Source of the DNA: Arthrobacter zhaoxinii
Lineage (GTDB): Bacteria; Actinomycetota; Actinomycetes; Actinomycetales; Micrococcaceae
NCBI RefSeq assembly: GCF_024385505.1
Contig: NZ_JANFLT010000001.1
Coordinates: 1-64,000 of the forward strand
Reading direction: 5' to 3'
Length of the DNA stretch: 64,000 bases
Part shown: one piece after another, positions 6,957-50,228 of the stretch
Layout of the letters: the number at the start of each line of letters is the position of its first letter
Numbering within the stretch: the first letter of the stretch is position 1
Notes under the pieces: model-generated
What the model was told of the DNA's origin: nothing
The model's input: only the letters and a program-made list of their open reading frames with translations
The model's database searches: none
Program-made: the position numbers and the translations under genes

Positions 6957-9464
6957 ATGCTGCAGGTAGCCTTGGCGCAGGTGCGCCTGAATGCCCGGCG
7001 GTTCATCGCCGTTTCCCTGGCGGTGCTGATTGCCGTCGGCTTCCTCACCGCAACCCTCATCATCAATTCCTCGTCCAAGGCCTCGCTGACGCAGAGCGTC
7101 GGCGAGGCATACCGGAACGCCGATCTGCTTGTCACCAGCGATATGTACAGCGCGGACTCGGCCGTATTGGATGAAGACACCGCCGCCCTGGTCCGGGACA
7201 CCCCCGGCGTCGACGGTGTCTATGCGGCCCGGCAGGCCTACGTCACTTTCGGCGAGGGCCGGGACAACGTTTTCGCCCAGCTGGCCAACACCTCCGACTA
7301 CGCGGATCTCTTCCCCGTGGAAGTGCTGCAGGGCACGCTGCCCGCTGCCGACAACGAATTAGCCGTGGACAAGCAGACGGCCGAGCTCCACGAGCTGTCA
7401 GAGGGATCGGTCTTGCCCCTCACCTCCTTTATCGCTGACCCGACGGGTGAACAGCAGACGGCGGAGTTCACAGTCACGGCACTGGTTTCCGACTCCAACG
7501 ACCCCCAGGCCATGGGCACCCCGCAGCTGTATTCGACCTCTGCCGCGGTGGATGGGTTCGCCGAACCGGAGACCGGTTTCAGGAGTATCCAGGTGGCACT
7601 GGCAGACGGGGCCGCGCTGGAAGACGTCCGCGCGGCACTGCAGGAAGACGTCAGCGGTATGGCAGGTGTCTCCGTCCGGACCGCGCAGGAGCAGACAGAC
7701 GAAATGGTTGCTTCCATGACCGGCGGGAAGGACATCCTCACCACCATCCTGCTCGCCTTCGCTGCCGTGGCCCTGTTGGTCTGCGCCCTGGTGGTCTCCA
7801 ATACCTTCTCGGTATTGGTGGCCCAACGCACCCGCGAACTCGCCCTGCTTCGGTGCATTGGTGCAGCCCGCTCACAGATCCGCCGCGCCGTCATTGTGGA
7901 AGCGCTGGTTGTGGGCATCGTGGCCTCGATTGCGGGAGTCCTTGCGGCCGTCGCACTGATGGGCGGAATTATCGCTTATCTGAAAACCATCCCGGAGAGC
8001 GGCTTCGCGACGCTGGCGGTCTCCCCGCTGGCTGTGATGGTCGGCCTGGTGGTGGGCGTCGCGATGACAGTGCTGGCAGCATTGGTTCCGGCACGCGCTG
8101 CAACGGCCGTCGCGCCTTTGGCAGCCCTGCGTCCCGCCGACGACGTCCGCGCCGGCACAAAACGCGGCCGGGTCCGCCTGTCCATCGGCATGGTGCTGCT
8201 GGCTGCCGGTGCCGCCCTGCTGGCCGTCGGCACGGCAACGAATAACCTGCTCGTGGCTTTGCCCGGCGGCATGCTCAGCTTCATCGGTGTGCTGATGTGC
8301 GCCACCCTCTTTGTTCCTTTCCTGGTCCGTACCGTCGGCAGGATTGCTGCGCCTCTGGGAGTGCCGGGCAAACTGGCGGCACTCAACGCCGTCCGCAACC
8401 CCCAGCGCACCTCCGCCACGTCCTCGGCCCTGCTGATCGGCGTCACCCTGGTCACCATGATGATGACCGGTGCGGCAACCGTCCGGACTTCCCTGGACGG
8501 CGTGCTGGCCGCCGGGTACCCGGTGGATGTCAGCATCAGCGGCGCCACCGACAAGTCGCCGTTCACCTCGGCCGATGCCGACGCAGCGCGTGCCGTGGAG
8601 GGTGTGCGGGAAGCTGTGCTGGTACCTTCGGCCGGAATGGCCGAGACCGAAAACGGACCGTACGGTGTTTATGCCCTGACCCCTGAGGACGCCGCGAAGG
8701 TAGTGCGGGACTCCGCATTGGAACTGGATGACGGCATCATCCTGATGCCGAAGGGAACCGCAGACAAGACGGTCACGGTGCAGGGGGCTTCCGGGAGCGT
8801 CGAGCTGAAGGTTGTGGTTTCGGAAAGCCAGGCGCTGCAGCCGCTGATCACTGCCCGGACCGCCGAAACCCTCGGCGGCCTGCCCGCCGCAACGGCGGAC
8901 ACCTACATTCCGCAGCCGGAGCTGTGGCTGTCCGTTGTGGACGGCCTGAACACCAACGAGCTGATGGACCTGCGCACCGACCTCGCCGCGGCGGTGGACG
9001 TGGAGGACTACGCCGTCTCGGGTTCGGCCATCGAGCGGGGGGCCTATGAACAGGTCATCGACGTTCTGCTTCTGGTGGTTACCGGCCTGCTGGGAGTGGC
9101 AGTGGTTATTGCCCTGGTGGGTGTGGCCAACACACTCTCCCTCTCCGTACTGGAACGCACCCGGGAATCCTCGCTGCTGCGCGCCCTCGGTCTCACCCGC
9201 GGCCAACTGCGCGGCATGCTCGCGCTCGAAGCCGTGCTGATTGCCGGCGTGGCGGCCCTGATGGGCAGCGTGCTGGGGTCGCTCTACGGCTGGCTGGGGG
9301 TGGAATCAGCGCTGGGGGCCTTCGCTGCCGTCGCGCCGTCGCTCCCCTGGCTGCAGTTGACTGCTGTCCTGGCCGTAGCGATCCTGGCGGGTCTGGGGGC
9401 GTCCGTGCTTCCGGCCCGGCGTGCGGCCCGGCTCTCCCCCGTGGCAGGCCTGGCCGCGGACTAG
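6957..9464 (+). CDS. ABC transporter permease, FtsX/MacB-like
   Basis: An 835-residue membrane protein with two FtsX domains. An N-terminal helix (residues 12-32) is followed by a long extracellular domain of about 230 residues. A three-helix core follows (TILLAFAAVALLVCALVVSN; VIVEALVVGIVASIAGVLA; AVMVGLVVGVAMTVLAALVPARAA), then two linker helices, a second extracellular domain and a second core ending in LPARRAARLSPVAGLA. The LALLRCIGA and SSLLRALGL motifs at the cytoplasmic coupling helices are typical. It forms an exporter with the preceding ATPase. The two-component system upstream may control it. Confidence 0.92.
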   Translation: MLQVALAQVRLNARRFIAVSLAVLIAVGFLTATLIINSSSKASLTQSVGEAYRNADLLVTSDMYSADSAVLDEDTAALVRDTPGVDGVYAARQAYVTFGEGRDNVFAQLANTSDYADLFPVEVLQGTLPAADNELAVDKQTAELHELSEGSVLPLTSFIADPTGEQQTAEFTVTALVSDSNDPQAMGTPQLYSTSAAVDGFAEPETGFRSIQVALADGAALEDVRAALQEDVSGMAGVSVRTAQEQTDEMVASMTGGKDILTTILLAFAAVALLVCALVVSNTFSVLVAQRTRELALLRCIGAARSQIRRAVIVEALVVGIVASIAGVLAAVALMGGIIAYLKTIPESGFATLAVSPLAVMVGLVVGVAMTVLAALVPARAATAVAPLAALRPADDVRAGTKRGRVRLSIGMVLLAAGAALLAVGTATNNLLVALPGGMLSFIGVLMCATLFVPFLVRTVGRIAAPLGVPGKLAALNAVRNPQRTSATSSALLIGVTLVTMMMTGAATVRTSLDGVLAAGYPVDVSISGATDKSPFTSADADAARAVEGVREAVLVPSAGMAETENGPYGVYALTPEDAAKVVRDSALELDDGIILMPKGTADKTVTVQGASGSVELKVVVSESQALQPLITARTAETLGGLPAATADTYIPQPELWLSVVDGLNTNELMDLRTDLAAAVDVEDYAVSGSAIERGAYEQVIDVLLLVVTGLLGVAVVIALVGVANTLSLSVLERTRESSLLRALGLTRGQLRGMLALEAVLIAGVAALMGSVLGSLYGWLGVESALGAFAAVAPSLPWLQLTAVLAVAILAGLGASVLPARRAARLSPVAGLAAD

Positions 9465-9575
9465 CTCCTCGCGGTCCGGGCGCGGATCTGCAAGGATACT
9501 GAACAGGATGAATTACTAAGCAGGCTGATTTCAGCCGGCACTACGAGATACATCCGGACAACGTGAGGAGAGCAC

Positions 9576-10088
9576 ATGCAGCAGTCCCAGACGGAACACG
9601 AATCATTGGCCGCCTACCTGGACGACCATCTGGTCGGGGCAGAGACGGGCGTCCGCCTTTTCACCGCCGCGCAGCGCACCTGGGAAGGATCTCCCTATGA
9701 GGAAACCTTCGCCCGGCTCGCGGAGGAAATCTCGGACGAACGCGACGAACTGGAATCCCTGATCCACGCGCTGGGTTATTCGCGCAGCAAGGTCAAGGCT
9801 GCGGCCGCCATGGTGGGCGCGGCAGCCGGAAAGCTGGGACCGCTCAATCCGCTCAGCACCGGCGGCGGCGCCACGGGGCAGCTGGAACTGGAATCCCTGC
9901 AGTCCCTGGTGCGGATGAAGGAATCCCTGTGGCGGACCCTGCTGGTGCTGTCCGCCACGGATCACCGGTTCAACACGGCCCGCCTGCAGGAGCTCACCGA
10001 AACCGCCCGGCGTCAGCAGGAAGAAGTCGCCGGCGTGATGGAACGGACGGCCGCGCAGCGGTTCCTCGGCTCAGCCGAATCCGTCTGA
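9576..10088 (+). CDS. Hypothetical helical protein, ferritin-like
   Basis: A 170-residue protein with no identified catalytic motif. The pattern is of long amphipathic helices: residues 8-35, 40-70 (rich in E, D and R), a Gly/Ala stretch around 80-100, then helices at 105-130 and 133-160. This resembles a four-helix bundle; a DUF892-like or ferritin-like fold is a guess. A strong ribosome site (GTGAGGAGAGC) precedes the ATG. It stands alone between the ABC permease gene and a terminator. No signal peptide or membrane segment is seen. Confidence 0.6.
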   Translation: MQQSQTEHESLAAYLDDHLVGAETGVRLFTAAQRTWEGSPYEETFARLAEEISDERDELESLIHALGYSRSKVKAAAAMVGAAAGKLGPLNPLSTGGGATGQLELESLQSLVRMKESLWRTLLVLSATDHRFNTARLQELTETARRQQEEVAGVMERTAAQRFLGSAESV

Positions 10089-10102
10089 CCTCCGCAGGAT
10101 CC

Positions 10103-10138
10103 AAAAACACCCCCGGCAGTCTGCCGGGGGTGTTTTTT
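10103..10138. terminator. Bidirectional intrinsic terminator
   Basis: The arms AACACCCCCGGCAG and CTGCCGGGGGTGTT are separated by one base, with T-runs on the right and A-runs on the left. It sits between convergent genes, the helical protein (+) and metG (-), and can serve both. Confidence 0.85.
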
Positions 10139-10148
10139 GCTGCCGGGC

Positions 10149-11708
10149 CTATTCGGCCGGTTCTTCGTACTTCGGGAAGATAGGCGCCGGGGCCGGCAGT
10201 TCGGTGCCCGGCACCAGCGGGGTGCCGATGGCGCTGAACAGGCGGGCATCGCCGTCGGGCTGGCCCAGGACAGTAAGCAGCTTACCCGCGCTCTGGGGCA
10301 TGACCGGCTGGATCAGGATCGCCACGATGCGCAGCACCTCCAGCGTCACGTAGAGCACGGTGGACATGCGCTCGACGTCGGTCTTCCGCAGCACCCACGG
10401 TGCCTGGTCGGCGAAGTAGGCGTTGGTGTCGCCGAGGACCTTCCACGTGGCTTCCAGTGCGCCGTGGAAATCCTGGACGTCGTAGGCCTCGCGGGAAAGC
10501 TGCAGCAGGTTCCCGGCCGCTTCCAGCAGCGCAGTGTCCTCGGGGGCGAACGCCCCGGGCTGCGGTACCGCCGCGCCGCAGTTCTTGGCCACCATGGACA
10601 GCGAACGCTGGGCGAGGTTGCCCAGGTTGTTGGCGAGGTCGGAGTTCATCCGGCCGACGACGGCGTCGTGGTTGTAGGAGCCGTCCGCGCCGAAGGGTAC
10701 TTCGCGCAGCAGGAAGAACCGGACCGAGTCCAGCCCGTACTGTTCGGCCCATGCTTTCGGCGCCACCACGTTGCCCAGGGACTTGGACATCTTGACGCCC
10801 TTGTTGTGCAGGAAGCCGTGGATCATGATGCGCTTCGGCAGTTCCAGCTTCGCGGACATCAGGAATGCCGGCCAGAAGATGGCGTGGAAACGGGAGATGT
10901 CCTTGCCGATCACGTGCACATCGGCCGGCCAGTACTTCTTAAAGGCTTCGCTCTCCGTATCGGGGAAGCCGACGCCGGTGAGGTAGTTGGTCAGGGCGTC
11001 CACCCAGACGTACATCACGTGGTCCGGGTTGCCCGGCACCGGGACACCCCAGTCAAAGGTGGTGCGGGAAATGGAGAGGTCTTCCAGGCCGCCCTTGACG
11101 AAGCTGATGACTTCGTTGAACCGCGAGCGCGGCGCGGCGAAGTCCGGCTGGGACTCGTACAGGGCCAGCAGCCGGTCCTGGTAGGCGGAGAGACGGAAGA
11201 AGTAGCTTTCCTCTTCCGTCCAGGTCACCTCGGTGTCCGTCTCCTTGGAGTAGCGGACACCGTCCTCGCGGACTTCGGTTTCGTCTTCGGTGTAGTAGGC
11301 CTCGTCCCGGACGGAGTACCAGCCGGCGTACTTGGAGAGGTAGATGTCGCCGTTCTCCTCCATCCGCTTCCAGATGGCCTGCGCGGCGGCGTAGTGGTCC
11401 GCGTCGGTGGTGCGGATGAAGCGGTCATAGGAGGTTCCCATGTCCGCTTCCATCTGCAGAAAGGCGGCTGAGTTGCGGTCCGCGAGTTCCTTGGCGGTAA
11501 CGCCTTCCTTATCCGCGGACTGCTGCATCTTCAGGCCGTGCTCGTCCGTGCCCGTCATAAAGAACACGTCGTAGCCGTCGAGGCGCTTGAAGCGGGCCAT
11601 GGCGTCGGTGGCGATGTGCTCGTAGGCGTGCCCGATGTGGGGTTCGCCGTTCGGGTAGGAGATGGCCGTGGTGATGTAGAACGGGGTCTTGGAATCGGAA
11701 GAAGTCAC
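10149..11708 (-). CDS. metG: Methionyl-tRNA synthetase
   Basis: A 519-residue class Ia synthetase that charges tRNA-Met. The HIGH-type motif PHIGHAYEH follows an [10 protein letters not shown]-like start. WYSVRDEAY lies in the connective-peptide region, and the KMSKS loop appears intact as [11 protein letters not shown]. The anticodon-binding helical domain makes up the last about 150 residues. The connective peptide lacks a CxxC zinc knuckle, fitting the short metal-free class of many actinobacteria. No C-terminal dimerisation domain is present. It lies downstream of serA in the same direction, separated by 109 bases. Confidence 0.97.
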
Positions 11709-43622: not shown

Positions 43623-44099
43623 TCACATCCCGGTGTCCGCGGCAGCCAGCAGCAGCGGCAGCATCCGTCCCTGGAAATGCGTGTTCAGCACAATCACGGA
43701 TGAGGTCCGCAGGACGGTGTTGGTGAAGACAATGGCGTCGATGACCCGCTGCAGATCCGAATTGGACCGCGCTGCCACCCGGGCCAGCAGGTCGCTCTCT
43801 CCCGAGACGGTGTGGACCTCCTGGATTTCCGGAATGCGGGACAGCGCTGCGACCACCGCGTCGTGGCCGGTGTCCTGGCGGATGGTGAGCGAGCAGTACG
43901 CCACGACGTCGTACCCCAGGGCCTCGGCGTCGATCCGCGGACCCCATCCGGCAATCACTCCGGTCTCCTGCATCCGGTCCAGGCGTGCCTGCACGGTGGC
44001 CCGGGCAACGGACAGCCGGCGCGAGGCCTCCAGCACCGACATCCGGGGGTTGTCGGTGAACAGGGTGACAATACGGGCGTCCAGCGCGTCGGTGGGCAT
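43623..44099 (-). CDS. Lrp/AsnC-family transcriptional regulator
   Basis: A 158-residue regulator with an N-terminal helix-turn-helix (ALDARIVTLFTDNPRMSVLEASRRLSVARATVQARLDRM) and a C-terminal RAM/ligand-binding domain (VAALSRIPEIQEVHTVSGESDLLARVAAR). AAAGGA precedes its ATG. It is divergent from the amino-acid permease gene, 185 bases apart. The 2-oxoacid dehydrogenase operon follows the permease. In other bacteria Lrp relatives control permeases and branched-chain oxoacid dehydrogenases, so this one is a good candidate controller of both. Confidence 0.92.
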   Translation of the reverse strand: MPTDALDARIVTLFTDNPRMSVLEASRRLSVARATVQARLDRMQETGVIAGWGPRIDAEALGYDVVAYCSLTIRQDTGHDAVVAALSRIPEIQEVHTVSGESDLLARVAARSNSDLQRVIDAIVFTNTVLRTSSVIVLNTHFQGRMLPLLLAAADTGM

Positions 44100-44143: not shown

Positions 44144-44284
44144 GAGCCAACGGTGCAGCCGGCCGGAACCGGGCACACACAAACGGCCTTAAGATGGAAT
44201 CCGGTATACAGTTCCGCGGCGGCTTCTCTGCCAGCCGGCGGCTGTACAGCCAGCCAATCCGTTCGTTCTAAGGCCCCTCCCGCT

Positions 44285-45712
44285 ATGCCCAGTTCCGCCC
44301 GCCCGTCCAGCACTGATACTGCACTTCCGGCCGGGGAACCGTCCGGCGCGAAGAAGATGCAGCCCAGGCACCTCGTCCTGATGAGCCTGGGCAGTGCCAT
44401 CGGCACCGGCCTCTTCGTAGGCTCCGGCGAAGGCATCGCGGCGGCCGGACCCGCGGTGCTGATTTCCTTCCTGATCGCCGGAACCATGGTGATCCTCATC
44501 ATGCGCATGATGGGAGAAATGGCGGCGGCCGACCCCAGCAGCGGCGCGTTTTCCGTGTATGCGGAGAAAGCCCTGGGGCGCACGGCCGGCACCACGGTCG
44601 GCTGGATGTGGTGGTTCCAGATAGTCATCGTCATTGCCGCCGAAGCCACGGCGGCCGCGGCCATCGTGGCCTCCCTGGTTCCCGGCGTCGAGCAGTGGAT
44701 GCTGGCGCTGGCGTTCATCATCGTGTTCACCGGGGTCAACCTGGCCGGAGCTGCCAGCCTGGGCGAATTCGAGTACTGGTTCGCCATCCTGAAGGTCGCG
44801 GCCATCATCATCTTCCTGGGCGTCGGCGTCGCCTTCGTGGCCGGCCTGCTTCCCGGCGTCGAGTCCCCCGGCACCTCCAACCTCTTCCACAACGGCGGCT
44901 TTATGCCCAACGGACTGACCGGCGTGGCCTCCGGACTGCTGCTGGTGGTGTTCGCCTTCGGCGGCACCGAGATCATCACCATCGCCGCCGCGGACACCGA
45001 GGAGCCGTCCAAGAACATTGCCGGGGCCATCAACTCGGTGATCTGGCGGATCCTGGTCTTCTACATCGGTTCGGTCCTGGTGATGGTCACCGTCCTGCCC
45101 TGGGACAGCGAAGCACTCAGCACCGGGCCGTTCGTGGCCGTCCTGCACGCAGCGCAGGTGCCCGGCGCGGACACCGTCATGGCGGTGGTCATTGTCATCG
45201 CCCTGCTGTCCGCCATGAACGCCAACCTGTACGGCGCCTCCCGGATGATCTACTCCCTGGCCGAGCGCGGCCGGGCACCGGGGGCCCTGGGCCGGCTGGG
45301 CTCCGGCGGAGTGCCGAGGCGGGCGGTGCTGGCCTCCGTGGTGTTCGGCTTCATTGCCGTGGTGCTGAACTACCTCTACCCCGACACCGTGCTGATGATC
45401 CTGCTCAACACGGTCGGCTCCACCTGCCTGGTGGTCTGGGGCATTTCCATCGTTTCGCAGATCATCCTGCGGCGGCGCGCGGAGGCCGCCGGCGTCGAAC
45501 TCACGTTCAAGATGTGGGCCTTCCCCTGGCTCTCCTACTTCGCGCTGGCGCTGCTGGCGGGCATCGTGGTCCTCGGGTTCTTCGACCCCGACGTCCGCGT
45601 CCAGCTGCTGGCGACGGCGGCCCTCAGCACCGTACTGGTGCTGCTGGCCTGGTCCTTCGAGCGGCGCACCGCCGCCAAGGGGCGTGCAGCGTCCGGCACA
45701 CTGGCCGAATAG
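44285..45712 (+). CDS. Amino-acid permease (APC superfamily)
   Basis: A 475-residue proton symporter of the amino-acid transporter (AAT) group, with 12 predicted helices. The first helix carries the unwound substrate motif GSAIGTGLFVGSGEGIAAAGP. Helix 3 contains MWWFQIVIVIAAEATAAA, and the helix-6 region FAFGGTEIITIAAADTEEPSKNI is typical of AAT permeases. The ATG at 44285 (MPSSARPS) removes a non-conserved extension; the ribosome site is weak. It is divergent from the Lrp regulator. Substrates may be neutral or branched-chain amino acids, given the neighbouring oxoacid dehydrogenase. Confidence 0.92.
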   Translation: MPSSARPSSTDTALPAGEPSGAKKMQPRHLVLMSLGSAIGTGLFVGSGEGIAAAGPAVLISFLIAGTMVILIMRMMGEMAAADPSSGAFSVYAEKALGRTAGTTVGWMWWFQIVIVIAAEATAAAAIVASLVPGVEQWMLALAFIIVFTGVNLAGAASLGEFEYWFAILKVAAIIIFLGVGVAFVAGLLPGVESPGTSNLFHNGGFMPNGLTGVASGLLLVVFAFGGTEIITIAAADTEEPSKNIAGAINSVIWRILVFYIGSVLVMVTVLPWDSEALSTGPFVAVLHAAQVPGADTVMAVVIVIALLSAMNANLYGASRMIYSLAERGRAPGALGRLGSGGVPRRAVLASVVFGFIAVVLNYLYPDTVLMILLNTVGSTCLVVWGISIVSQIILRRRAEAAGVELTFKMWAFPWLSYFALALLAGIVVLGFFDPDVRVQLLATAALSTVLVLLAWSFERRTAAKGRAASGTLAE

Positions 45713-45779
45713 GCATACCGGGTCCCGGCCGGACCCTTCCCCGGATGCGCAAACTGCATAGCAGAGAGTGTGGATGACC

Positions 45780-45802
45780 GACACATTTGCACAGAATGTG
45801 TC
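45780..45802. promoter_or_regulatory. Candidate operator of the 2-oxoacid dehydrogenase operon
   Basis: GACACATT-TGCACAG-AATGTGTC is a perfect 8-bp inverted repeat, 53 bases before the E1 alpha start. The position suits a promoter-proximal operator. The Lrp regulator two genes upstream is one candidate binder. Confidence 0.45.
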
Positions 45803-45854
45803 ATGTTCTGCACGCTGTTTGCCCACTGTGGCGTGAAGCACTAAATTGCGGACT

Positions 45855-46874
45855 ATGGACAATAATCTGCAATCTGCGGCCCTGCCGGCGGAGGAACTCC
45901 GGGAGCTGTACCGCCTGGTCACCGCCGTCCGGCAGCTGGACCTCGCCGCGATCGCCTGGCAGCGCCAGGGCATCATCCCCGGTTACGCCCCGGAACTGGG
46001 CCAGGAGGCCGCCCAGGTGGGCAGCGCCTTCGCCATGGATCCCGAGCACGACTTCGTTTTCCCCACCTACCGGGAAATGGGCGTGGCACTGACCATGGGC
46101 GTGGACATGACCGCCTACATGTCCACCCACAAGGCCAGCTGGCACGGCGGCCTCTACAACCCGGTGCAGACCCGGCTCGCACCCATCCAGGCAGTGGTCG
46201 GTGGGTCCGTGCTGCACGCCGTCGGCTGGGCGCACGGACAGACCCTCGCCGGGAACCCCGGCGTGGCCCTGACCTACTTCGGCGACGGCGCCAGCTCCCA
46301 GGGCGACGTCCATGAGGCCATGAACTTCGCCGGAGTCCTGAAGGCGCCGGTCATCTTCTTCGTCCAGAACAACGGCTGGGCCATCTCGCTGCCCACCGAG
46401 GCCCAGGTGGCCGGCGGCACCGTCGCCGCCCGCGCAGCCGGGTACGGCATCAAGGCCATCACGGTCGACGGCAACGACGCCGCCGCCGTCGTCCAGGCCA
46501 CCCGCGAAGCCGCCGCGCACGCCCGGTCCGGACACGGACCGGTGCTGATCGAGGCCATGACCTACCGCCGCGGCCCGCACTCCACCAGCGATGATCCCGG
46601 CAGGTACCGCAGCCTGGCGGAGGAACGCCGGGACGAGGGCGCAGACCCCGTCCGGCTGCTGGCGGACCGGCTGCTCGCCGACGGGATAGCCGACGCCGCG
46701 TTCCTGGACTCCGCGCTGCAGGACGCCAACGCCAACGCAGACCGTATCCGCGAGGGGGTTCTGGCGCTCGGCCCGCGCCCCGGATCCGAAATGTTCGACT
46801 TCGTTTTTGCCGAGCCCACCGACGCACTTCAAGCCCAGGCACGCGCCTGGCGGGAGGAATCCGAACATGTCTAA
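45855..46874 (+). CDS. 2-oxoacid (probably branched-chain) dehydrogenase E1 alpha
   Basis: A 339-residue ThDP-dependent subunit. The thiamine motif runs from GDG (143-145) to NN (172-173). Conserved blocks include GYAPELGQEAAQVG, FPTYREMGVAL and HEAMNFAGVLKAPV. Near the C-terminus TYRRGPHSTSDDP matches the loop of branched-chain and pyruvate E1 alpha. The ATG at 45855 is used; an in-frame TTG lies nine bases before. The neighbours support branched-chain oxoacids, but pyruvate or acetoin-derived substrates are not excluded. First gene of a four-gene operon. Confidence 0.9.
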   Translation: MDNNLQSAALPAEELRELYRLVTAVRQLDLAAIAWQRQGIIPGYAPELGQEAAQVGSAFAMDPEHDFVFPTYREMGVALTMGVDMTAYMSTHKASWHGGLYNPVQTRLAPIQAVVGGSVLHAVGWAHGQTLAGNPGVALTYFGDGASSQGDVHEAMNFAGVLKAPVIFFVQNNGWAISLPTEAQVAGGTVAARAAGYGIKAITVDGNDAAAVVQATREAAAHARSGHGPVLIEAMTYRRGPHSTSDDPGRYRSLAEERRDEGADPVRLLADRLLADGIADAAFLDSALQDANANADRIREGVLALGPRPGSEMFDFVFAEPTDALQAQARAWREESEHV

Positions 46875-47973
46875 GCAGCTCAGCGACGCCGTGGCGTCCT
46901 CCGATCTGGAAGCGGCTGCCCGGAACACCGGCGAAACCGCCGCGCAGGAACAGTCCGCGGCGGTTTTGTCCCCGGCGACGGGCGAAGGCCGGGTGGAAAA
47001 CCTCTCGATGCAGGGTGCCCTGAACCGTGCCCTGGCCGAAACCCTGGCGGAGGATCCCCGGGCGGTGGTCCTTGGCGAGGACGTGGGGCGCCTCGGCGGC
47101 GTCTTCCGCATCACGGACGGCCTGCAGCAGCGCTTCGGCGCCGACCGCGTCTTCGATACCCCGCTGGCGGAATCCGGCATCCTTGGGATGTCCGTGGGGC
47201 TGGCCATGGCCGGGTTCCGTCCGATCCCCGAGGTGCAGTTTGACGGCTTCGCCTACCCCGCCGTGAACCAGATTGTCACCCAGCTGGCCCGGATGAACTA
47301 CCGCAGCCGCGGCACCATGCCCATGCCGGTCACCCTGCGCGTACCGAGCTTCGGCGGCATCCGCGCCCCCGAGCACCACGGGGAGTCGCTGGAGGCGCTG
47401 TTCGCGCACGTGCCGGGCCTGAAAGTGGTTTCCCCGTCCAGCCCGCACGAGGCCTACCACCTGCTGAAACACGCCGTAGCCGTTCCGGATCCGGTGATCT
47501 TCATGGAACCGAAGTCCCGCTACTGGCAGAAGGGCGATGTGTTCCTGGACGACGCCGGCCCCCTGCAGGGTGCCAAGGTGGTCCGTCCGGGCAGGCACGT
47601 CACGCTGGTGGCGTGGGGTGCCATGGTGGCCCGCTGCCTGCAGGTGGCCGAGCTGGCCGCTGAGGACGGCATCGAGGTGGAGGTCCTGGACCTGCGCTGG
47701 CTCAAGCCGATCGACGCCGAGGGCCTGGCTGCCTCCGTGGCCCGGACCCGGCGCGCCGTCGTCGTCCATGAAGCGCCGCTGACCTCCGGTCTCGGCGCCG
47801 AAGTGGCCGCCCTGATCACGGAGCGCTGCTTCGATACCCTGCGCGCTCCGGTTGGGCGGGTCACGGGATTCGACGTACCGTATCCCTCAGGCGACCTTGA
47901 AGATGAATACATCCCGAACATCGACCGCATCCTGTTCGGGATCCAGCGAGTATTGGAGTACCGGCGTGGCTGA
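46867..47973 (+). CDS. 2-oxoacid dehydrogenase E1 beta
   Basis: A 368-residue partner subunit that completes the ThDP site. After a 55-residue polar N-terminal extension it shows MQGALNRALAETL, VVLGEDVGRLGGVFRIT, DTPLAESGILGMSVGLAMAG, RPIPEVQFDGFAYPA and the C-terminal transketolase-C region with VVVHEAPLTSGLGAEVAA. It overlaps the E1 alpha stop by eight bases and the lipoyl gene start by eight bases, so the products are coupled. Confidence 0.92.
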   Translation: MSKQLSDAVASSDLEAAARNTGETAAQEQSAAVLSPATGEGRVENLSMQGALNRALAETLAEDPRAVVLGEDVGRLGGVFRITDGLQQRFGADRVFDTPLAESGILGMSVGLAMAGFRPIPEVQFDGFAYPAVNQIVTQLARMNYRSRGTMPMPVTLRVPSFGGIRAPEHHGESLEALFAHVPGLKVVSPSSPHEAYHLLKHAVAVPDPVIFMEPKSRYWQKGDVFLDDAGPLQGAKVVRPGRHVTLVAWGAMVARCLQVAELAAEDGIEVEVLDLRWLKPIDAEGLAASVARTRRAVVVHEAPLTSGLGAEVAALITERCFDTLRAPVGRVTGFDVPYPSGDLEDEYIPNIDRILFGIQRVLEYRRG

Positions 47974-48295
47974 AATCCCCTTCCCCCTTCCCGACCTCGG
48001 CGAAGGCCTGATCGAAGCCACCGTGCTGGAGTGGCTGGTGTCCGTGGGCGACCAGGTGGAACGCAACCAGCCGCTGGTCGAGGTGGAAACCACCAAATCA
48101 GCGGTGGAGCTGCCCTCCCCGCAGGCCGGACGCGTGGCCCGCACCTACGGCGAGCCGGGTGAAACCATCAACGTGGGTGAACCGCTCATCGTCTTCGAGG
48201 TTCCGGACAACACCGCCGGCATCGTGGGCACCGTGCCGCAGGAGGCTCCGGCACGCCGCCGGGTCCGCCTGACCGCTGCACTGGACGAGGACTAA
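47966..48295 (+). CDS. Free-standing lipoyl-domain protein in place of E2
   Basis: A 109-residue protein made of one lipoyl domain (FPLPDLGEGLIEATVLEW at the start, lipoyl Lys44 in ETTKSAVELPSP, VGEPLIVFEV at the end) plus about 25 further residues. A normal E2 has over 400 residues with an E3-binding domain and a catalytic acyltransferase domain carrying HxxxDG. Neither is present. It begins with GTG inside the E1 beta end, and the next gene starts 3 bases after its stop, so it is a compact functional gene and not a broken E2. Confidence 0.85.
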   Translation: MAEIPFPLPDLGEGLIEATVLEWLVSVGDQVERNQPLVEVETTKSAVELPSPQAGRVARTYGEPGETINVGEPLIVFEVPDNTAGIVGTVPQEAPARRRVRLTAALDED

Positions 48296-48298
48296 ACA

Positions 48299-49117
48299 GT
48301 GGCCGACTACGGCTCCCTGGTGGAGGGCACCGATCCGCGCCTGCAGGTCGAGGTGACCGATCCCGACGGCGGAACGGGCGCCGCGGCGGGCGCCGGAGCG
48401 CTGCGCCCGGTGCTACTGCTGCACGGCTTTGCCTCCAGCTCGCAGCTGAACTGGCACGATTCGGGCTGGATCACGGCGCTGACCGCCGCCGGCCGCCGGG
48501 TCATCGCCGTGGACCTGCCCGGCCACGGCGGCAGTGCCGCCCCGGCGGACCGCGGCTCCTACCGCCCCAGCCGCATCCGCGCGGACCTGCTGCAGGTCCT
48601 CCAGGACGCCGGCGTCGTTCCGCTTGCCGACGGCGACCCGGCCAGCGGCCTGGACATTGTGGGGTACTCCCTCGGTTCCCGCCTCGCCTGGGAATTCGGG
48701 GCGACCCAGCCCGAGCTCGTGCACCGCATGGTGCTGGGAGGGCCCGGAAGCGGGGACCCGCTGGCGGAGTTCGACCTGGACGCCGCCCGGGAGGCAGCTG
48801 CGGGCGGGGCACCCGTGGAGGACCCGCGCACCGCCGAACTGCTGCGGATGGCACAGCTGGTCCCCGGAAATGACCTGGCCGCCCTGTTCCGGATGATCGA
48901 AGCCATCAAGGAGGAGCCCTTCTCCCCCGCAGCTGCGGTTCCGGCCATGCCGCTGCTCCTGGTGGCCGGAGACCGGGACGACTTGGCGGTGACGGCACCG
49001 GATCTGGCGGCCCTGAGCGGGCAGGCCGAGCTCCTCTCGCTGCCGGCCCGCACCCACACCAACGCCGTGACGTCGCGGGCGTTCAAGACCGCTGCCGTGG
49101 AATTCCTGGGCCGGTAG
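48299..49117 (+). CDS. Alpha/beta hydrolase linked to the lipoyl protein
   Basis: A 272-residue soluble alpha/beta hydrolase. The catalytic set looks complete: oxyanion HGF (42-44), nucleophile elbow GYSLG (Ser124), an acid in AGDRDD (225-228) and His253 in ARTHTNAV. The GTG lies 3 bases after the lipoyl gene stop. Acetoin-dehydrogenase E2 proteins are described with a lipoyl domain fused to an alpha/beta hydrolase; here the same two modules are separate genes. It may act on the acyl-lipoyl intermediate, or have an independent ester or thioester substrate. Confidence 0.85.
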   Translation: MADYGSLVEGTDPRLQVEVTDPDGGTGAAAGAGALRPVLLLHGFASSSQLNWHDSGWITALTAAGRRVIAVDLPGHGGSAAPADRGSYRPSRIRADLLQVLQDAGVVPLADGDPASGLDIVGYSLGSRLAWEFGATQPELVHRMVLGGPGSGDPLAEFDLDAAREAAAGGAPVEDPRTAELLRMAQLVPGNDLAALFRMIEAIKEEPFSPAAAVPAMPLLLVAGDRDDLAVTAPDLAALSGQAELLSLPARTHTNAVTSRAFKTAAVEFLGR

Positions 49118-49210
49118 CCCTCCCTGCACGGGTTACAGCTTCATCACAGAGCCGGACTGTCCCGCCGACACGCATCTGCGCGGGCTACGATGGAAGGGTC
49201 GGCGGGCTAG

Positions 49211-49228
49211 CAATCAGCCTGCTGATTG
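49211..49228 (+). promoter_or_regulatory. Hairpin in the kinase 5' region
   Basis: CAATCAG-CCTG-CTGATTG is a perfect 7-bp dyad, 40 bases before the kinase start codon. It may be an operator or an RNA hairpin in the untranslated leader. Confidence 0.35.
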
Positions 49229-49268
49229 TTTCGGCTTGAGATCATTTACCCCCCAAGGGAGGACACCC

Positions 49269-50228
49269 GTGGATGTACTCCTGGGCCACCGCTACCGCAC
49301 CACCGAACTCATCGGATCCGGCGGTACTGCCGCGGTCTACCGGGCGGTGGATGAGAACCTTGGCCGGGAAGTAGCCGTCAAGCTTTTCAGCGTGGGGATC
49401 AGCGAGGACGACGAAGACCGCCGCCAGCAAACCGAGATGCAGCTGCTGGCTACGCTGAACCATCCCGGACTGGTCACCCTGCTGGATGCCGGTGTCACCG
49501 TGGACGACGAGGGACGCAGCTCCAGCTTCCTGGTGATGGAACTCGTGGACGGACCCGACCTGCGCGGGACGCTCAAGGAAGGTCCGCTCTCCTCCTCGGC
49601 AACGGCAGCACTGGGTGCCGACCTGGCGGACGCCCTGAACTACATCCACAGCAACGGGGTCATCCACCGCGATGTGAAACCCGCGAACATCCTGCTGTTC
49701 CCGCAGGAGGATATGGATACCCGCCTGTATCCGCGGCTCACGGACTTCGGGATTGCCCGGATGATGGAAGCCACCATGGCGACCGCCCACGGTGCCACCA
49801 TCGGGACCGCGAATTACCTGAGCCCGGAACAGGCCCAGGGCTCCGCCGTGGATCCGCGCACCGATGTCTACTCCCTCGGCCTGGTGCTCCTGGAGTGCCT
49901 CACCGGGGAAAAGGCGTTCCCCGGACCGATCGTGGAATCGGCCGTGGCACGGCTGCTCCGCGACCCCGAGATTCCGGAGTGGGTCGGTGCCGACTGGACC
50001 GCCGTCCTGCGTGCCATGACCTCCCGCCTGGTGGACGCCCGCCCCGAGGCCCACGAAGCAGCGGTGGCGCTGCGCTCCCTGGCGTCCGAAGCGATGGTGC
50101 TGGACGGACCCGGCACCGCCCCGTCGTCGGACGCGTTTCCGGCCAATGACCCCGTCACCGGCGAAGGCGTCACCACGGGCAACATCTACATTCCGGCGCC
50201 GCCGCAGCACGCACCCAGCCTCGGCTAA
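49269..50228 (+). CDS. Soluble Ser/Thr protein kinase
   Basis: A 319-residue Hanks-type kinase. The Gly loop is GSGGTAAVY (from residue 17), with ATP Lys38 in EVAVKLF, catalytic HRDVKPANILL (Asp135), DFG (159-161), an activation segment with several Thr (TMATAHGATIGTANYLSPEQAQG) and DVYSLGLVLLECLTG. The catalytic domain fills about 275 residues, and a disordered Pro/Thr-rich tail ends at 319. No transmembrane or PASTA segment is present, unlike PknB. The GTG start follows GGGAGGAC. No phosphatase gene is adjacent. Confidence 0.92.
   Translation: MDVLLGHRYRTTELIGSGGTAAVYRAVDENLGREVAVKLFSVGISEDDEDRRQQTEMQLLATLNHPGLVTLLDAGVTVDDEGRSSSFLVMELVDGPDLRGTLKEGPLSSSATAALGADLADALNYIHSNGVIHRDVKPANILLFPQEDMDTRLYPRLTDFGIARMMEATMATAHGATIGTANYLSPEQAQGSAVDPRTDVYSLGLVLLECLTGEKAFPGPIVESAVARLLRDPEIPEWVGADWTAVLRAMTSRLVDARPEAHEAAVALRSLASEAMVLDGPGTAPSSDAFPANDPVTGEGVTTGNIYIPAPPQHAPSLG

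Follow-up and report, generated by a model that had tools for sequence, protein, structure and literature searches.

A conserved gene cassette with a stand-alone lipoyl protein in the E2 position of a 2-oxo acid dehydrogenase locus of Arthrobacter zhaoxinii

A stretch of 64,000 nucleotides from Arthrobacter zhaoxinii (contig NZ_JANFLT010000001.1, positions 1 to 64,000), referred to below as the window, carries four closely packed forward-strand genes, here called the cassette, in which the E2 component of a 2-oxo acid dehydrogenase appears in reduced form. The first gene encodes the thiamine diphosphate (ThDP)-dependent E1 alpha subunit (339 residues, 45855-46874), with a full-length E1_dh domain (PF00676, 255.9 bits). 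The second encodes E1 beta (368 residues, 46867-47973), with the Transket_pyr and Transketolase_C domains (PF02779 and PF02780). The third, which starts with GTG, encodes a stand-alone lipoyl protein of 109 residues (47966-48295), in which Biotin_lipoyl (PF00364, 66.0 bits) is the sole Pfam domain. The fourth also starts with GTG and encodes an alpha/beta-hydrolase-fold enzyme of 272 residues (48299-49117), which matches Abhydrolase families including PF00561. E1 alpha overlaps E1 beta by 8 bases, E1 beta overlaps the lipoyl gene by another 8, and the hydrolase start lies in frame 3 bases past the lipoyl stop codon, in the order stop, one codon, GTG. Coordinates and Pfam content agree with the first-pass annotation of this DNA, which had described an E1 alpha and E1 beta pair, a 109-residue lipoyl-only E2 and a separate hydrolase 3 bases downstream.

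The 2-oxo acid dehydrogenases are textbook three-part complexes built on a large E2 core. In the lipoyl protein, neither the E3_binding domain (PF02817) nor the acyltransferase domain 2-oxoacid_dh (PF00198) was found by Pfam scan, and none of the five PF00198 places of the genome lies inside the window. Both domains are present in 4 of 4 other E2s scanned in the same genome, which bears out the earlier description of an E2 of which only the lipoyl domain is left. The top NCBIfam scores of the protein are to E2 models, in a comparison that included no LbpA model. Lys44 (codon at 48095-48097, in the context VETTKSA) is the predicted lipoylation site and is invariant across the 14 rows of the lipoyl-protein alignment A1. 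The C-terminal tail carries the motif GIVGTVP..RRVRL (48218-48271), which, compared by eye, resembles the linker stretch of canonical actinobacterial E2s (LVGYG..RRRR); on sequence grounds, the protein may represent an E2 that stops within the linker following the lipoyl domain. The AlphaFold2 model is beta-rich and fairly confident over the lipoyl part and has low confidence in the tail (mean predicted local distance difference test score, pLDDT, 76.8; predicted template modelling score, pTM, 0.60).

This reduced form is constant across loci. Two families besides the Micrococcaceae enter the comparison: f4, a family of the same order, and f24, a distant actinobacterial family. Lengths were measured from the LPDLGEG motif to the stop codon, since the starts of the f24 genes are not fixed, and came to 99-107 residues in all 114 loci (102 in the window). 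The values were 102-103 in 80 named loci and 99-107 in 18 f24 loci, while another 15 Micrococcaceae regions and the locus L217 gave 101-103; some named and unnamed loci belong to the same genomes. The tail motif, or a close form of it, was present in every one of the 114 loci, with the lipoyl frame ending after it. Lipoyl and hydrolase domains are therefore not in one polypeptide, a stop codon standing between the genes. The arrangement had been proposed as a maintained one; this constancy, together with a hydrolase adjacent in 80/80 named and 18/18 f24 loci, supports that view, and it leads us to reject chance or annotation error and, for the family as a whole, a pseudogene.

The lipoyl orthologue occurs in 88 of 295 Micrococcaceae genomes, every match having an expectation value (E) of at most 1e-44. 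A limit of E<=1e-25 gave 94 genomes, from which six were excluded: five with only a long-frame match (470-662 residues, as expected of full E2s), and one (G217) with a partial relic. A hydrolase match at E<=1e-15 is present in 227 genomes, all 88 among them. The named loci are the 80 best among 320 that were confirmed; they come mostly from Arthrobacter, with Pseudarthrobacter, Paenarthrobacter, Sinomonas and a few others. The gene-order comparison that the first-pass annotation had proposed for this bacterial family can be given from them: within the ranges and identities searched, E1 beta and the hydrolase were found in 80/80 and E1 alpha in 79/80, the single miss being L152, where just 231 bases upstream were available. 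Other neighbours in the same search were an AsnC-type gene (78 loci), a permease (62) and a kinase (23).

Beyond the Micrococcaceae, a class sample of 394 genomes searched at E<=1e-36 yielded the lipoyl protein in the window's own genome, 20 f24 genomes and one f4 genome (G488, locus L217). A larger f24 sample contained it in 21 of 100 genomes (E<=1e-32). The same order of E1 alpha, E1 beta, lone lipoyl gene and hydrolase was seen in 18/18 fetched f24 loci and in L217; 20 regions were fetched, covering 18 of the 20 lone-lipoyl f24 genomes (all except G482 and G673). The f24 hydrolases are 40-45% identical to that of the window, and those of g14 (L095 and L096, two loci fetched) are 34-36% identical yet adjoin a lipoyl gene. 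The E1s and hydrolase of G488 fall among Micrococcaceae rows in the trees, which suggests transfer. Recurring in both families among the window neighbours searched are the E1 genes, the hydrolase and the divergent AsnC-type gene; neighbours beyond the gene types of the window were examined in five loci. For E1 beta and the hydrolase, no plasmid relatives were found at >=60% identity; the plasmid record H125 is 63% identical to the lipoyl protein over 65% of its length. Where neighbours of E1 beta matches were read in Streptomyces and Nonomuraea, full-length E2s lay alongside.

Three loci or pairs of loci may be mentioned separately. L178, on a contig labelled as an Acidobacteria metagenome-assembled genome, has the cassette with 80% lipoyl identity and is probably a binning error. 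L236 (G490), a different paralogue that was left out of the counts, has an E1 alpha/beta pair followed by a 124-residue lipoyl frame (9852-10223) ending in an arginine-rich linker; a further truncated E2 or a frameshift could account for this frame. In the f24 loci L218 and L234, gene starts downstream of the hydrolase resemble a solute-binding lipoprotein and part of an ABC transporter; judged from the N-termini alone, these perhaps form a separate operon.

The E1 subunits appear intact. E1 alpha keeps the ThDP motif (GDG...NN, GDG-X-NN), and its closest relatives in the PDB are the E1 alpha subunits of pyruvate dehydrogenase (PDH) and of the branched-chain type. E71 and H171 of E1 beta and H121 and H242 of E1 alpha, which we take to be active-site residues, are invariant between the cassette E1s and nine canonical rows. 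Against the PDH E1 alpha model (NCBIfam TIGR03181), E1 alpha scores 382.6 bits, under the equivalog cut-off of 411. Identity to the three E1 pairs that accompany full E2s in the same genome is 39-44% for E1 alpha and 50-53% for E1 beta. In maximum-likelihood trees of 45 rows each (46 offered with the window, L277 dropped), a small comparison set, the cassette E1s of both families form one clade, with support of 99/98 for beta and 99/99 for alpha. This clade is separate from eight rows of other operons, from L236 and from L275, an AcoC-type locus described below; the reduced E2 thus goes with a dedicated E1. Residues fixed in the cassette and absent from the nine canonical rows, for example Y88, H92 and W125 in alpha and F162, H244 and W278 in beta, suggest a different substrate or a different partner. 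At its N-terminus, E1 beta is also extended by about 40 residues (46867-46998) that lie outside the alignments to most canonical E1 beta sequences.

The hydrolase carries a nucleophile motif, GYSLG, that fits GXSXG, and an Asp and a His are present as in ABHD11-like thioesterases. From position and fold class, Ser124 (48668-48670), Asp227 (48977-48979) and His253 (49055-49057) probably form the catalytic triad. These residues, together with R128 and R251, are invariant in 27/27 aligned cassette hydrolases (alignment A2, the window and 26 of 34 other cassette hydrolases). The AlphaFold2 model of the enzyme is confident (pLDDT 92.9).

The whole genome contains 12 Biotin_lipoyl places, 5 acyltransferase places (PF00198) and 6 E1_dh places, one of them weak. 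The fifth acyltransferase place is a Kgd-type fusion, a single frame of 1288 residues with PF00198 and PF00676. Two lipoamide dehydrogenases (Lpd) score over the curated cut-off, and there are three LplA/LipB-type places; E3 and lipoylation enzymes are thus at hand. A search for other E2 cores and E3 genes had been recommended in the first-pass annotation, which also held that the split arrangement would fall if a complete E2 elsewhere used these E1 subunits. Besides the two Lpd genes, four complete E2s do exist, three of them with E1 alpha and E1 beta genes of their own alongside (C6, C2 and C1:567k). The fourth (C5) has two lipoyl domains and adjoins a lipoamide dehydrogenase gene.

The relation between hydrolase and lipoyl protein differs between the two families. 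In the f24 sample, the 21 genomes (of 100) that have the lipoyl protein are also those with a hydrolase at E<=1e-70, a limit that was chosen after a score gap was seen. Because the related species are not independent, no probability is given for this coincidence. Hydrolase and lipoyl gene share a contig and stand at most 350 bases apart in 21/21. In the Micrococcaceae, many genomes have the hydrolase and lack the E1 alpha, E1 beta and lipoyl genes (the trio). A partnership of the two proteins is therefore supported in f24 and less plainly so in the Micrococcaceae, and the hydrolase cannot be solely a servant of this lipoyl protein. As a strict partner it is weakened by the trio-less genomes; as a mere passenger, by the matching sets of 21 genomes.

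The surroundings of trio-less hydrolases were viewed at length in six genomes (L103-L107 and L319). L107 (G217; 8080-9681) preserves a clear deletion scar of the cassette: a permease frame runs unbroken into lipoyl residues 34-109, E1 alpha and E1 beta are gone, and a 64% hydrolase match follows the fusion, which keeps the lipoyl Lys. In L103, of the same genus, a weak 45-residue relic of E1 beta precedes the hydrolase (E 5.5e-4). No cassette relics were found in L104, L105, L106 or L319. At least in L107 and L103, the E1 and lipoyl genes were thus lost in place and the hydrolase retained. In the hydrolase tree, from which 7 of 69 rows, L275 among them, were dropped as too short or unmatched (68 loci on recount), supported branches require the label (trio present or absent) to change at least six times, with a seventh, distant trio-less row (L316) counted, and the tree points to several losses of the trio within the Micrococcaceae.

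The nearest known systems are the AcoC fusion and ABHD11. An AcoC example is encoded in L275, a Roseateles plasmid record (NZ_CP084754) marked as of unverified organism. Like the cassette, it adjoins E1 alpha and E1 beta genes and combines lipoyl and hydrolase domains with no 2-oxoacid_dh domain; unlike the cassette, which has two proteins, one lipoyl domain and no E3-binding domain, it is a single chain in which an E3-binding domain accompanies two lipoyl domains. A likeness to such fusions had been noted at first pass and is real: in a read-through of the lipoyl and hydrolase genes, the AcoC model NF011457 is the best-scoring NCBIfam model, though at 107.3 bits against a cut-off of 307. The annotated AcoC of L275 scores 455.6 bits. 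None of 197 class genomes passed the AcoC cut-off, and the L275 E1s are far from the cassette E1s in the trees, on a long branch; together these results rule against a split AcoC orthologue. When profiles of the cassette hydrolases and of the L275 hydrolase part were compared, just 103 columns aligned. The cassette is accordingly rated as a variant of its own and not filed as AcoC. ABHD11, a serine alpha/beta hydrolase of human mitochondria, acts on the lipoyl arms of 2-oxo acid dehydrogenases; it cleaves glutaryl-lipoyl thioesters and not glutaryl-CoA (PMC12643935; CoA, coenzyme A), and without it functional lipoylation is impaired in the 2-oxoglutarate dehydrogenase complex (PMC7426941). The cassette hydrolase is compared with it by fold class.

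Other systems resemble the cassette in part. The canonical operon of E1 alpha, E1 beta and full E2, of the branched-chain or pyruvate type, has gene order, E1 architecture and active-site motifs in common with it; the cassette differs in that its E2 lacks the E3-binding and acyltransferase domains and its E1s form their own clade. In the actinobacterial mixed complex of PDH and 2-oxoglutarate dehydrogenase (ODH), lipoyl groups are used in trans across complexes, OdhA (KGD) depending on those supplied by AceF (PMC10415282). That complex has an acyltransferase without a lipoyl domain, whereas the cassette has a lipoyl protein without an acyltransferase. LbpA is likewise a single-lipoyl-domain carrier outside E2, with a role in sulfur oxidation (PMC6067878). 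LbpA is GcvH-like and linked to sulfur-oxidation genes, whereas the cassette protein appears to be E2-type and is linked to E1 genes; no sHdr genes are among the nine proteins annotated at the locus. No description of the present gene arrangement was found in the open-access literature, subscription journals being mostly outside the search.

Further genes flank the cassette. A divergent Lrp/AsnC-family regulator lies upstream on the reverse strand (43623-44099), with scores under the cut-offs of the NCBIfam AsnC/Lrp models. An amino acid permease on the forward strand (44153-45712, start not fixed) has a gamma-aminobutyric acid (GABA) permease model as its top match, under cut-off, and is perhaps related to the system by substrate. 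Downstream on the forward strand is a PknB-like Ser/Thr kinase (49236-50228, start not fixed). A kinase stands 3' of the hydrolase in many Micrococcaceae (L040, L042, L043, L045, L046, L050) and also in the trio-less L319; it adjoins the hydrolase whether or not the E1 and lipoyl genes are present and is not counted as part of the system. A simple scan of 45650-49300, of little weight in an actinobacterium, found no promoter or terminator signals.

The explanation tentatively preferred here, at close to even confidence, is a reduced 2-oxo acid dehydrogenase in which the truncated E2 would be a mobile carrier of acyl groups: E1 would load it, the hydrolase would unload it and a shared E3 would serve it. 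E1 alpha and E1 beta would decarboxylate a 2-oxo acid and acylate the lipoyl group on Lys44. To judge by the AsnC-type gene and the amino acid permease, this acid probably derives from an amino acid; a literature search on phenylpyruvate in Arthrobacter yielded nothing usable on the substrate. The hydrolase would then cleave the acyl-lipoyl thioester through Ser124, Asp227 and His253 and so unload the carrier, and the shared E3 would reoxidise the dihydrolipoyl arm with nicotinamide adenine dinucleotide (NAD+). In favour of the unloading role are counted the adjacency of the hydrolase (80/80 named loci, 18/18 in f24, and L217) and the co-occurrence in f24. The explanation also draws on the fixed length and tail of the lipoyl protein, the dedicated E1 clade, the invariant Ser, Asp and His, the diverged g14 hydrolases that keep their place by the lipoyl gene, and the Lpd and LplA/LipB-type genes. 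By analogy, the L275 AcoC fusion beside E1 genes and ABHD11 may serve as precedents for a hydrolase that unloads lipoyl groups. As acceptor of the acyl group, water, giving a free acid, would be rather favoured over CoA, because an enzyme that clears lipoyl arms stays useful after loss of the trio and a partner that forms acyl-CoA does not. A fully CoA-free route is a more doubtful proposal: a dedicated bacterial acyl-lipoyl hydrolase would free the carboxylic acid, with acid, CO2 and NADH (the reduced form of NAD+) as products and no acyl-CoA, and would later have taken on maintenance of lipoyl arms, surviving alone in many Micrococcaceae.

Several observations weigh against this explanation. 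Hydrolases without a lipoyl orthologue are present in 95 of 295 Micrococcaceae genomes (E<=1e-55), and six f24 genomes with weaker hydrolase matches (1e-41 to 1e-55) have no lipoyl gene. The trio-less hydrolases of the six genomes viewed nest among cassette rows in the hydrolase tree, and the same tree does not settle whether the f24 and Micrococcaceae hydrolases are one another's nearest relatives. Ten fetched f4 regions have a related hydrolase, with a similar C-terminal RxH motif, and no detectable E1 or lipoyl genes nearby. Sequence matches of the hydrolase are to esterases in general, and its Foldseek matches, which say little about substrate, are to general esterases, peroxidases and other hydrolases; neither set indicates a lipoyl thioesterase. 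Four complete E2s are encoded elsewhere in the genome.

These last genes make delivery in trans a possible alternative, one that takes a substantial minority share of our confidence. The charged lipoyl protein would hand its acyl load to a different E2, whose acyltransferase core would make acyl-CoA, and the hydrolase would be an ABHD11-like cleaner of stalled or wrong acyl groups on this carrier and on other E2s. The four complete E2s are available as cores, the OdhA/AceF system offers an actinobacterial precedent (PMC10415282), with a Kgd-type fusion in the present genome, and the survival of the hydrolase after the E1 and lipoyl genes in Micrococcaceae would be accounted for. However, each of the three E1-linked E2s has its own adjoining E1 pair, the lipoyl protein has no peripheral-subunit-binding domain, and the f24 sample holds no hydrolase at E<=1e-70 without the lipoyl gene, which would be unexpected of a general cleaner of lipoyl arms. 

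It is unlikely that the hydrolase is linked to the cassette and mechanistically unrelated to it, acting on a substrate of its own, within this pathway or outside it, with the E1 and lipoyl trio using another route. The trio-less loci of Micrococcaceae, several with an adjoining kinase, the stand-alone relatives in f4 and the retention of the hydrolase after apparent loss of the trio would all be consistent with such independence, but the adjacency in two families and the matching 21-genome sets in f24 count against it. Donation by the acyl-lipoyl carrier to a third acceptor, which could be a biosynthetic enzyme or an acyl carrier protein, seems quite improbable, as does a redox role. LbpA (PMC6067878) does provide a stand-alone lipoyl protein with another role, and the fixed E1 residues absent from the nine canonical rows leave room for a different substrate or partner; among the window neighbours searched, however, both families share just the E1 genes, the hydrolase and the AsnC-type gene. 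That the short protein is a functionless remnant of a canonical E2 is scarcely credible, for although its tail resembles an E2 linker and deletion relics of the cassette exist (clear in L107, weak in L103), length and tail are constant in 114/114 loci and the E1 active-site residues are intact.

If the E2 of this conserved branch is a lipoyl carrier alone, the core and the acyltransferase of a 2-oxo acid dehydrogenase can be dispensed with or borrowed. The AcoC hydrolase domain also occupies the place where an acyltransferase is expected. If the hydrolase unloads the carrier, the cassette would contain a bacterial equivalent of ABHD11 and would parallel AcoC with two proteins in place of one, in a system that could be reconstituted from four or five proteins.

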